A stretch of DNA of 64,000 bases, from positions 2,976,001 through 3,040,000 of the forward strand of contig NZ_AP027742.1 of NCBI RefSeq assembly GCF_030296775.1. The letters run 5' to 3'. Source of the DNA: Claveliimonas bilis. Lineage in GTDB: Bacteria > Bacillota > Clostridia > Lachnospirales > Lachnospiraceae. The notes under the pieces were generated by a model. That model did not search any database. It worked only from the letters and a program-made list of their open reading frames with translations, and was not told where the DNA came from. The translations under genes and the position numbers were made by a program. The number at the start of each line of letters is the position of its first letter. Positions within the stretch are counted from its first letter, which is position 1. Shown here in pieces: positions 2,189 to 32,915 of the stretch.

Positions 2189-2763
2189 TATAATGTCCAC
2201 GTAAGCAAAGAGCCATGCAGAAATACAAGAGATCAGCAGGGGCTGCTTGCAGACACTGCTGGTATCTTGTATTTCTATAGGGCGAATGCCCGTGAGCGAG
2301 AGACTTTTGTCTCGAGCTCGCATGGCTCTTTGCGGGAGCTTGTCTTTCATAGGGCGAATGCCCGTGAGCGAGAGACTTCTGTCTCGAGCTCACATGGCTC
2401 TTTGCGGGGGCTTGTCTTTCTTAGGGCGAATGCCCGTGAGCGAGAGACTTCTGTCTCGAGCTCGCATGGCTCTTTGCGGGGGCTTGTCTTTCTTAGGGCG
2501 AATGCCCGTGAGCGAGAGACTTCTGTCTCGAACTTGCATGGCTCTTTGCGGGGACTTGTCTTTCTCAGGGCGAATGCCCGTGAGCGAGAGACTTCTGTCT
2601 TGAGCTCACATGGCTCTTTGCGGAGACTTGTCTTTCTTAGGGCGAATGCCCGTGAGCGAGAGACTTCTGTCTCGAGCTCGCATGGCTCTTTGCGGAGACT
2701 TGTCTTTCACAAAGCCACCGGGCACACTACACAAACAACAATCCAACAACCAGGTGAATATAT
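2189..2763 (+). promoter_or_regulatory. Leader element A: promoter plus structured repeat leader of mutS2
   Basis: The element opens with GGTATAAT (-10 box 2189-2194; the -35 TTTCCT is weak). It has a 5' arm GCAAAGAGCCATGC (2205-2218), a hairpin AGAAATACAAGA/TCTTGTATTTCT (2219-2230 with 2265-2276, apical CAGCAG/CTGCTG), then six 72-bp units, each ending in GCATGGCTCTTTGC or a near variant that can pair with the 5' arm. No U-tract terminator occurs before mutS2, so transcripts should run into it. Related elements precede the AraC gene and the sortase. Its function is unknown. This stretch holds no convincing protein gene, although open frames cross it because 72 is a multiple of three. Confidence 0.7.
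2279..2710 (+). repeat. Six tandem 72-bp hairpin repeats
   Basis: Units start at 2279, 2351, 2423, 2495, 2567 and 2639, each exactly 72 bp. Each carries a GGGC-GAAT-GCCC mini-hairpin, then GTGAGC-GA-GAGAC-loop-GTCTC-GA-GCTCRC (a stem with a symmetric tandem G.A internal loop), then the 3' arm. Differences between units are few and lie mostly in the loop (TTTT/TTCT), the outer stem (GCTCGC/GCTCAC) and the spacer. Confidence 0.95.
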
Positions 2764-5142
2764 ATGAATCAAAAAACACTGAATAAACTTGAATACAACA
2801 AAATCATCGAACTTCTGGCACAGCAGGCCACCTGTCCCGGAGGCGAACGCGCCTGCCGGGCTTTAAAACCGTCTGCCGACTTAACTGCCATCGAAACAGC
2901 ACAGGCGGAAACAGAAGCCGCTTTTTCAAGGATCGTCCGCAAAGGAAAACTTTCTCTTAGCGGCTGTTATCCTGTATCCGACTCTCTGAAACGCCTGGAA
3001 ATCGGCGGAACTTTAGGAGCCGGAGAACTGCTGCGCATCTGCAAGCTTCTCTCGGCTGCAAACCGTGCGAAATCCTACGGACGCCACGAGACAACGGACG
3101 ATCTTGCAGATTGTCTGGACCCGTATTTTGAACAGATCGAACCCCTTACCGTTCTGTCGTCCGAGATCGAACGGTGCATCATCAGCGAGGAGGAGATCAG
3201 CGACGATGCAAGCCCTGCCCTGAAGCAGATACGCCGGCAGATCGGCCTTGCAAATGACCGGATCCATTCCACCCTCACCTCCCTTGTAAATGGTTCCATG
3301 CGCAGTTATCTTCAGGACGCATTGATCACCATGCGGGGAGACCGTTACTGCATCCCTGTCAAAGCAGAATACAGAAGCCAGGTTCCCGGTATGATCCACG
3401 ACCAGTCGGCCACCGGATCCACTCTTTTCATCGAACCAATGTCTGTTGTAAAGCTGAATAACGACCTAAAGGAGCTGTACGGCAAGGAACAGGAGGAAAT
3501 CCAGGTGATCCTGGCCTCTCTTAGCGCCGCTGCCGCCGAGCACATCGATGCCATACGCGCCGATTACCAGATCATGACTACCCTTGATTTTATTTTCGCA
3601 AAGGGGAGTCTTGCACTGTCCATGAACGCAAGCCGTCCGGTCTTCAATCAGGACCGGCGCATCCATATACGTGAGGGCCGCCATCCTCTCCTTGACCGGA
3701 AAAAGGTAGTTCCCATCACCGTGACGCTGGGGGATACCTTTGATCTTCTGATCATTACCGGTCCCAACACCGGGGGAAAAACTGTCTCCCTGAAGACAGT
3801 GGGACTTTTCACCCTCATGGGACAGGCCGGACTTCATATTCCCGCCCTGGACCGCTCTGAACTGGGTGTTTTTGAAAATGTCTATGCAGATATCGGAGAT
3901 GAGCAGAGTATTGAGCAGAGCTTAAGTACCTTCTCGTCTCATATGACAAATATTGTCTCCTTCCTGAAAATGGTCACTCCGTCTTCTCTCGTCCTCTTCG
4001 ACGAGCTGGGCGCCGGAACAGACCCTACAGAAGGTGCAGCTCTTGCCATTGCGATCCTAAGTCATCTTCATCGGCAGGGAATCCGCACCATGGCAACCAC
4101 CCATTACAGTGAGCTGAAGGTATTTGCCCTTTCGGAGAAGGGCGTGGAAAATGCCTCCTGTGAGTTTGATGTGGAAACTCTCCGTCCCACTTATCGTCTT
4201 TTGATCGGTATTCCCGGCAAGAGCAACGCCTTTGCCATTTCCAGCAAACTGGGGCTTCCCGACTACATTATTGAGGACGCCCGCCGTCAGCTTTCCTCCC
4301 AGGATGAATCCTTTGAGGACATTTTAAGCAATCTGGAACAGAGCCGGCGCACCATTGCCCGGGAGCAGGAGGAGATTGCCGCTTACAAGCGGGAGCTGGA
4401 AAAACTGAAATCCGAAGCGAAACAAAAACAGGAAAAACTGGATGCGCAGCGGGAACGCATCATCAATGAAGCCAACGAAAAGGCCCGCACTATCCTGCAG
4501 GAAGCCAAGGATGTGGCCGATGAAACAATGAAAAATTTCCGGCGTTTCGGCAAGGAAAACATTTCCGCCTCCGAGATGGAGAAAGAAAGGGAACGCCTCC
4601 GCCGCAAGATCGCCGCATCAGAGTCCGGAAATTCCCTGCAGACAAGGAAGCCTGCCAAGGTTCACAAACCAGGCGATTTCAAATTAGGGGAATCTGTCCG
4701 TGTCCTCAGCATGAACTTAAACGGTACTGTTACCTCTCTTCCCGATTCCCGCGGAAATGTAACAGTGCAAATGGGAATACTCCGCTCGCAGGTTAATATT
4801 TCCGATCTGGAGATCATTGAGGAAAAGCCGGTATATACTGCTGCCAAGAACAGACGTAATACATCCCAGGGCAAAATGAAGATGGGCAAATCCCTTTCTG
4901 TCAGCCCGGAGATCAATCTTCTGGGAAATACAGTGGATGAGGCGATTGCCAAACTGGATAAATATCTGGATGACGCTTACCTTGCGCATATTAACCAGGT
5001 GCGGATCGTTCACGGCAAAGGAACCGGAGCGCTCCGCAATGGAATCCATAATTATCTTCGCCGTCAAAAACATGTGAAAAATTATCACCTTGCCGCTTTC
5101 GGCGAGGGAGATGCCGGCGTAACTATTGTAGAATTTAAGTAA
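2764..5142 (+). CDS. mutS2: Endonuclease MutS2
   Basis: 792 aa, the usual MutS2 length. It has the MutS core and clamp, Walker A GPNTGGKT (about residues 333-340), Walker B LVLFDELGAGTD (about 408-419), a long Lys/Glu-rich coiled region (520-620) and a C-terminal Smr nuclease domain (about 715-792, VRIVHGKGTGALR). MutS2 proteins lack the mismatch-recognition domain; they act on branched DNA and suppress recombination, and some rescue collided ribosomes. The start lies 53 bp after the last repeat unit of leader A, with only a weak ribosome binding site (CAGGTGA). A response regulator gene follows after 14 bp, so the three genes to 7366 may form one operon. Confidence 0.95.
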   Translation: MNQKTLNKLEYNKIIELLAQQATCPGGERACRALKPSADLTAIETAQAETEAAFSRIVRKGKLSLSGCYPVSDSLKRLEIGGTLGAGELLRICKLLSAANRAKSYGRHETTDDLADCLDPYFEQIEPLTVLSSEIERCIISEEEISDDASPALKQIRRQIGLANDRIHSTLTSLVNGSMRSYLQDALITMRGDRYCIPVKAEYRSQVPGMIHDQSATGSTLFIEPMSVVKLNNDLKELYGKEQEEIQVILASLSAAAAEHIDAIRADYQIMTTLDFIFAKGSLALSMNASRPVFNQDRRIHIREGRHPLLDRKKVVPITVTLGDTFDLLIITGPNTGGKTVSLKTVGLFTLMGQAGLHIPALDRSELGVFENVYADIGDEQSIEQSLSTFSSHMTNIVSFLKMVTPSSLVLFDELGAGTDPTEGAALAIAILSHLHRQGIRTMATTHYSELKVFALSEKGVENASCEFDVETLRPTYRLLIGIPGKSNAFAISSKLGLPDYIIEDARRQLSSQDESFEDILSNLEQSRRTIAREQEEIAAYKRELEKLKSEAKQKQEKLDAQRERIINEANEKARTILQEAKDVADETMKNFRRFGKENISASEMEKERERLRRKIAASESGNSLQTRKPAKVHKPGDFKLGESVRVLSMNLNGTVTSLPDSRGNVTVQMGILRSQVNISDLEIIEEKPVYTAAKNRRNTSQGKMKMGKSLSVSPEINLLGNTVDEAIAKLDKYLDDAYLAHINQVRIVHGKGTGALRNGIHNYLRRQKHVKNYHLAAFGEGDAGVTIVEFK

Positions 5143-19054: not shown

Positions 19055-19286
19055 TATAATGTTCACGTAAGCAAAGAGCCATGCAGAAATACAAGAGATC
19101 AGCAGAGGCTGCTTGCAGACACTGCTGGTATCTTGTATTTCTATAGGTTCTATAGGGCGAATGCCCGTGAGCGAGAGGCTCTGCCTCGAGCTTGCATGGC
19201 TCTTTGAGAGAGCTCGTTTTTCGTATAGTGAATGCGCTATACGCCGCTGCACGGAAGCAAACAAAAAATCAGGAGAACAATATTCT
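19055..19286 (+). promoter_or_regulatory. Leader element B: promoter plus structured leader of the AraC regulator
   Basis: GGTATAAT (-10 at 19055-19060, a TTGCTT -35 with 17-bp spacing), 5' arm GCAAAGAGCCATGC (19071-19084), the AGAAATACAAGA hairpin with the same apical CAGCAG/CTGCTG, and one repeat unit: GGGC-GAAT-GCCC, then GTGAGC-GA-GAGGC-TCT-GCCTC-GA-GCTTGC and 3' arm GCATGGCTCTTTG (19194-19206). Compared with leader A, the inner stem changes from GAGAC/GTCTC to GAGGC/GCCTC, a compensatory pair. A short extra hairpin GTATAG/CTATAC follows before the AGGAGA ribosome binding site. Confidence 0.7.
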
Positions 19287-32604: not shown

Positions 32605-32826
32605 TTTTATCCTCCTTCTCTTCATCCGCCATGCAAGCTCGCCCCTCCGGGGGTCTCGCTCGCGGGCTTTCGCCCTATGCCAGGCTTTCTTTCCCCTCAT
32701 CCGCCATGCAAGCTCGCCCCCTCCGGGGTCTCGCTCGCGGGCTTTCGCCCTATGCCAGGCTTTCTTTCCCCTCATCCGCCATGCAAGCTCGCCCCCTCCG
32801 GGGTCTCGCTCGCGGGCTTTCGCCCT
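32602..32826 (-). repeat. Three tandem 75-bp hairpin repeats
   Basis: Minus-strand units begin at 32826, 32751 and 32676 with a 75-bp period; the first two are identical, and the third diverges at its 3' end where it supplies GAAGGAGG and the sortase start. They are diverged relatives of the 72-bp units before mutS2. Confidence 0.92.
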
Positions 32827-32915
32827 ATAGAAATGCAAGACGTCCAAATTGCATGCAAGCATGCATTTGTCCCTCTTGTATTTCTGCATGGCTCAATGCC
32901 TACGCGGATATTATA
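32605..32915 (-). promoter_or_regulatory. Leader element C: promoter plus structured repeat leader of the sortase
   Basis: On the minus strand GGTATAAT (32910-32915) is followed by GAGCCATGC, then AGAAATACAAGA pairing with TCTTGCATTTCT, but with a completely different apical helix (CAAATGCATGC/GCATGCAATTTG). Three 75-bp units follow, each GGGC-GAAA-GCCC, GCGAGC-GA-(G.CCCC/GGGG.C stem)-GA-GCTTGC, GCATGGC. The last unit runs into the sortase ribosome binding site. Architecture matches leaders A and B, while helix sequences differ. Confidence 0.7.

Follow-up and report, generated by a model that had tools for sequence, protein, structure and literature searches.

A dispersed structured element located behind -10 boxes of Claveliimonas bilis and varying in length between strains

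Results

The tandem array upstream of mutS2

The window, a stretch of 64,000 nucleotides of the Claveliimonas bilis genome, carries a 72-bp tandem array in front of mutS2. A sequence-only reading of this DNA had described six tandem hairpin units of 72 bp at 2279-2710, and this was confirmed by TRF, which gave a period of 72, 6.1 copies, 93% matches and a score of 754 in the window. In a motif scan the units started at 2279, 2351, 2423, 2495, 2567 and 2639, with 0 expected by shuffling. Each unit is composed of P3, P4, the 3' arm of P1 and a linker. The same reading had proposed that one 5' arm at 2205-2218 faces six alternative 3' arms, and these were located at 2320-2333, 2392-2405, 2464-2477, 2536-2549, 2608-2621 and 2680-2693; in units 2 and 5 the 3' arm starts with ACATGGC, as had been noted. 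The P3-P4 motif was found elsewhere in the window once at 19154 (+) and three times near 32654-32826 (-), again with 0 expected by shuffling. The counts given earlier, six units before mutS2, one before araC and three before the sortase gene, were thus correct, with the genes identified by Pfam. The features are as follows.

2189-2194 (+): TATAAT, the -10 box of the mutS2 promoter; native, with TATAAT or TAGAAT at the equivalent place in element-free relatives; upstream homology to four relatives (G003, G005, G006, G009) reaches through the box and then ends
2195-2204 (+): left end of the element, GTCCACGTAA; unpaired, family consensus RTNCRCGTAR
2205-2218 (+): single 5' arm of P1, GCAAAGAGCCATGC
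2219-2276 (+): P2, a long hairpin with a conserved CUUG apical loop; pairing kept, stem sequence variable
2279-2710 (+): six tandem 72-bp units; five units in strain c-25
2280-2291 (+): P3 of unit 1, GGGC-GAAU-GCCC
2292-2319 (+): P4 of unit 1, two stems flanking a GA/GA internal loop
2320-2333 (+): 3' arm of P1 of unit 1, first of the six alternatives
2764-5142 (+): mutS2, the gene downstream of the array, with MutS_V, Smr and MSSS domains (Pfam)
19055-19206 (+): second copy in the window, one unit, counted from its TATAAT, before an AraC-type gene (Pfam)
32622-32915 (-): third copy in the window, three 75-bp units (four in c-25), before a sortase gene (Pfam)

The mutS2 array is the variable 3' tail of a small dispersed element of about 140 nt plus extra units. 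The right end of the element is not sharply defined.

Fold of the element

Each copy follows the same plan: the 5' arm of P1, the long P2 with its CUUG apical loop, P3 (in general GGGC-GAAA-GCCC), P4 with its GA/GA internal loop, and the closing 3' arm of P1 (P1'). The P1 arms, which are the inverted-repeat ends of the element, are 14 bp long at mutS2 and araC and 7 bp elsewhere. The predicted fold had a z-score of -10.7 for the 5' arm with the first unit and of -10.2 for the whole mutS2 leader. In an alignment of 40 copies 94.4% of the paired cells could pair, as compared to 66.6% in shuffles; 36 of the 39 pairs had changes on both sides, and double-change cells numbered 394 versus 98 in shuffles. 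This alignment was fitted to the structure and the pairing is therefore inflated, but the difference between 394 and 98 is far beyond such inflation. When the partner column was slid by 1-3 positions as a control, pairing fell to 36-45%. The alignment shows that the predicted fold of the ~140-nt element, a four-way junction, is conserved through compensatory change.

With the 5' arm forced onto each of the six 3' arms, the calculated folding energy of the mutS2 leader ranged from -264.8 to -268.3 kcal/mol, a spread of 3.5 kcal/mol, in comparison to -250.5 kcal/mol with the arm left free. In this model the growing transcript would pair with the first 3' arm before the others. Since the six arms are nearly equal in energy and arm 1 would be favoured during transcription, extra units would, barring refolding, mainly lengthen the leader.

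Distribution in the genome and the family

A first covariance model was built from six copies. Covariance searching detected about 15 full-length copies in the 3.11 Mb C. bilis genome, and the six-copy model also gave full-length matches in most of the Lachnospiraceae relatives that were checked. With the refined model R2 matches were found in 157 of 250 Lachnospiraceae genomes, a sample of essentially one genome per genus. Similar copies form lineage-specific clusters, those of C. bilis being closer to each other than to the copies of other genera. The tandem P3-P4-P1' module is a family-wide property and not a peculiarity of mutS2, as it is also repeated in other copies and in the Clostridiales-1 RNA described below. 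An element specific to mutS2 was rejected, because R2 found no copy before this gene in the other 29 genomes checked. At one locus of another genome (G052, L075:1392-1781) the match to the element model falls within a region scored by Rfam as a T-box leader (77.8 bits), which is either an insertion or a cross-match; a BOX element has been described within the pneumococcal trp leader.

Relation to Clostridiales-1 RNA

The copies in the window matched no Rfam family at gathering or relaxed thresholds. Clostridiales-1 RNA (RF01699), for which the Rfam gathering cut-off is 48 bits, a score not reached by the element, gave one weak match in this genome (E 0.0024) and none in eleven other copies of the genome. 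Two intermediate copies from other genera matched RF01699 along its whole length, with strand and position in agreement but scores below the curated cut-off: L055 with 42.9 bits (E 4e-7, or 4e-6 in a larger search) and L054 with 38.3 bits (E 8e-6, or 8e-5 in the larger search). The reverse search with R2 was weak (best E 0.003) and overlapped partially with the places of RF01699, and for this reason the window element was not assigned to Clostridiales-1. By sequence comparison Clostridiales-1 RNA is the nearest named relative of the element, and the two are probably related.

Clostridiales-1 RNA was listed in 2010 as probably an RNA, not cis-regulatory and with no function (Weinberg 2010, PMC2864571). 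It was present in 27 of 61 relatives, with at least 30 listed copies in three genomes. In common with the element it has the helix order P1, long P2 (with a GCUUGC loop), P3, P4 and closing P1 arm, it is multi-copy in Lachnospiraceae, and its 3' module occurs in tandem in one genome, G036 (L111, L117). The copies of G036 differ from the element in that most of them do not follow a -10 box, and in having terminal inverted repeats, with ends TGATGCCAGGGTCAAAAG ... CTTTTGACACCCACATCA, and short flanking duplications, which were AT-rich and present at most sites inspected by eye. Three copies of G036 (L112, L118, L120) have an additional insert within P3 that ends in GACCGAAGCGGAGCGTAGA, one element being nested inside another. 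L112 also lies directly upstream of mutS2 in this other genus, by chance or through a shared preference.

Position behind -10 boxes

In C. bilis TATAAT immediately precedes 13 of the 15 copies, and all copies read in this species are upstream of a gene and oriented in its direction. The genes downstream (mutS2, pfkA, glyA, a sortase, araC, nicotinate phosphoribosyltransferase and a hydrogenase, among others) share no pathway. As models R1 and R2 include TATAAT, which could bias this count, an independent pattern without TATAAT was run over the species genomes. Of 17 usable hits, 12 had TATAAT no more than 16 nt upstream, among them 6 of the 11 outside C. bilis, against a background of 0.4%.

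At mutS2, four relatives share the sequence upstream and the -10 box and then continue with an ordinary leader. We compared nine more loci with element-free relatives (hydrogenase, pfkA, kinase, glyA, CoA-ligase, araC, L035, sortase and L026), and in each the upstream homology to alignable relatives extends past the -10 hexamer and breaks off no more than a few bases from it. The comparison thus covers 10 loci, at which all alignable relatives carry a plain leader; the nicotinate phosphoribosyltransferase locus (L027) did not align with other species, and L024 and L029 were left out. At the araC and kinase sites host homology resumes 0-3 nt past this hexamer; host sequence was thus not lost there to any large extent, nor is a target duplication obvious. 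The nagA gene of another genus is an independent case, with six element-free relatives. Sequence comparison at the ten loci and at nagA thus shows that the element was inserted at pre-existing host promoters.

The box itself differs at four of these sites. The relatives have TATGAT at araC (4/4), TATACT at CoA-ligase (4/4), TATACT at the sortase gene (relatives read) and TATACT at nagA (six relatives), whereas the element-bearing allele has TATAAT in every case. These differences suggest that AAT is supplied by the left end of the element, which would be joined to the host behind TAT.

Exceptions to the -10 position

In other genomes about 20 of 51 loci have a box matching at least 5/6 at the same spacing. 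About 30 of the 51 copies have no TATAAT-like box upstream, and the target rule is therefore incomplete. The positions of such copies were the stop codon of V-ATPase subunit B (copies L036, L067, L219 and L225) or of rubrerythrin (L066 and L076), a T-run, or next to hsp20. The V-ATPase copies, to which L287 belongs as well, come from several genera and separate subunit B, directly at its stop codon, from subunit D. An ancient fixed position at V-ATPase B/D was rejected, as only 3 of 30 loci are occupied; judged from this occupancy, inheritance is less likely than repeated insertion at the one site, which looks like a recurrent target. An empty V-ATPase site in G066 (L280) ends in GGTAAACAATAA, which resembles the left end of the element itself. 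Six copies in several genera (L061, L206, L209, L220, L223, L224) adjoin a CIRCE-like repeat, with a divergent hsp20-type gene adjacent in four of the six.

Unit number in two strains

The C. bilis strain c-25 (NZ_AP024845.1) was used for comparison, so that the following concerns two strains only. It shares 14 copies with this genome, in flanks that are about 97-99.8% identical. Unit number differed by whole units at 10 of the 14 shared loci, as follows (this genome/c-25).

Differing: sortase 3/4; kinase 2/3; L026 3/2; mutS2 6/5; pfkA 4/3; hydrogenase 1/2; CoA-ligase 4/1; L035 1/2; V-ATPase 2/1; atpC 5/3
Equal: L024 1/1; L029 2/2; glyA 2/2; araC 1/1

The earlier suggestion that copy number may vary between strains was thereby borne out, at mutS2 and beyond; a constant unit number, which would have spoken against that reading, was not what we found. 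Judged on the assemblies, an artefact is disfavoured, since both genomes are single contigs and the whole-unit differences carry base changes of their own.

The linkers are locus-specific, indicating that unit duplication comes after insertion. At the hydrogenase locus (L031) the linker of unit 2 is a copy of the 3' flank, joined at AGGGC, and illustrates a possible route to a second unit. From these sequences an expansion after insertion is plausible. At L035 one strain has lost the closing P1' arm, so closure of the junction is usual and not obligatory. At the nicotinate phosphoribosyltransferase gene (L027), c-25 is without the P1-P2 part, which was deleted between repeats; this strain difference is a secondary deletion. 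No presence/absence polymorphism of the element was caught between the two strains.

Discussion

We consider it fairly probable that the element inserts at promoters and becomes the 5' leader of the mRNA, altering its stability or expression, and this reading as a whole is the best explanation of our observations. The alternative arms and the strain variation put forward by the sequence-only reading stand; what it missed is that the array belongs to an inserted, family-wide element.

The element would be, or would have been, mobile and directed to -10 boxes, where the target is probably melted, single-stranded promoter DNA. Joining would take place after TAT, the left end of the element completing TATAAT, and transcription would then start from its first bases, so that the host mRNA would begin with it. 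Such a compact 5' fold could slow 5'-end-dependent decay of the RNase J type and change the leader. The P3-P4-P1' module may subsequently be duplicated or lost via slippage or unequal recombination, which would alter the length of the leader, usually with one or more closable junctions left. In Bacilli, extended downstream regions can be stabilised at a distance by a hairpin that lies at the 5' end or close to it (PMC3997798). By analogy, for an element at the very start of unrelated mRNAs, mRNA stabilisation would be the most economical effect on the host, and its most likely role is that of a mobile, transcribed 5'-terminal structure changing mRNA stability or expression. We found no mobilising enzyme within the one family checked, Y1 transposase. 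This candidate was rejected because its presence does not follow the element: Y1_Tnp is absent from G022 and G030, which have several copies, and present in G033 and G035, where the element is absent.

The element could also be a purely selfish, MITE-like repeat, in which the fold serves transposition as hairpin DNA and the -10 box is a target preference with no benefit to the host. We regard this as a serious possibility, somewhat short of an even chance. The element is short, non-coding and multi-copy, its P1 arms form inverted-repeat ends, similar copies cluster by lineage, and the genes downstream are unrelated. The related RF01699 copies of G036 have terminal inverted repeats and AT-rich target-site duplications; at araC and the kinase gene no such duplication was visible. 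The leader position is intact in all thirteen C. bilis copies that follow TATAAT, and the CUUG loop and the GA/GA internal loop are typical of RNA; both points speak against a selfish repeat and neither is decisive.

A cis-regulatory RNA, a riboswitch or attenuator in which copy number or the alternative 3' arms switch expression, along the lines of the sequence-only reading, seems improbable to us. The C. bilis copies lie on the same strand as the downstream gene and the modelled alternative pairings have similar energies, both in favour of such a switch, but no consistent function emerges from downstream genes without a common pathway, and unit number changes freely between strains, with P1' even lost at L035 in one of them. 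An attenuator was rejected, as P1' is without a following T-run in the copies read.

An ancestral presence of the element at these promoters, followed by loss in the relatives, is very unlikely. All promoter sites are common to both strains and old copies occur elsewhere; against this stand the absence of a copy before mutS2 in the other 29 genomes checked, the plain leader of all alignable relatives at ten loci, and the greater likeness of the C. bilis copies to each other than to those of other genera. A coding minisatellite with a 24-aa repeat is barely conceivable, for although 72 is divisible by 3 and a 251-aa frame (2012-2767, +) is open through all units, this frame was judged non-coding because units at other loci are often not multiples of 3 (about 61, 65, 68, 74 and 76), and conservation tracks base pairing and not codons.

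Returning to an inserted leader element, several known systems resemble it. In the parts of the BOX description used here (PMC3049150), the BOX elements of Streptococcus (boxA-boxBn-boxC) are likewise dispersed, intergenic and folded, with fixed ends and a variable tandem module, and are transcribed with host operons; the comparison is one of architecture alone. They belong to another bacterial order, and these parts describe no insertion exactly behind -10 boxes. The structure of BOX is also said there to depend little on boxB, whereas in C. bilis every unit brings its own closing arm for the outer helix. BrickBuilt of Porphyromonas gingivalis, a MITE with an internal minisatellite (PMC4596501), is also small, non-coding and intergenic with a leader, a tail and tandem units, but it is from another phylum and has 23-nt units, and the portions of its description considered mention neither a four-way junction nor -10 targeting. 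The papA-type hairpins and 5' stabilisers of Bacillus resemble the element in the proposed function, that of a structure right at the mRNA 5' end; they differ in being native leaders and not a family-wide inserted element (PMC3997798).

Small bacterial repeats are usually described as landing anywhere in intergenic space. The element described here is family-wide, lies in near single-base register behind existing -10 boxes and is promoter-oriented, and relatives show the original sites. In the open-access literature we found no description of -10-targeted repeats. It is conceivable, though we would give this less than an even chance, that the element represents a new class of mobile element which targets the -10 box itself in promoter orientation, becomes the 5' end of the mRNA and then varies in length by module duplication. 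Through its position behind existing promoters, a mobile element would be a source of ready-made 5' leaders, varying in length by strain, for housekeeping genes such as mutS2, pfkA, glyA and a hydrogenase in common gut bacteria. Clostridiales-1 RNA, which has been an orphan since 2010, might also gain an evolutionary setting from these findings. Natural strain pairs that differ in unit number are available for a direct test.

Other structures were seen at promoters. At L027 of this genome (G000:C1, ~636600) and at the mutS2 promoter of G006 (L122) there is a different promoter-proximal structure, GGTATAAT, with three consecutive hairpins followed by an inverted -10-like ATTATACC or ATATACC; this may represent another family of elements associated with -10 boxes. 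In sister species another hairpin-like stretch, GAACACTTGGCG(A/G)GG..., lies directly after the -10 box at the kinase promoter of G006 and G005 (L175, L176) and at mutS2 of G005 (L124).
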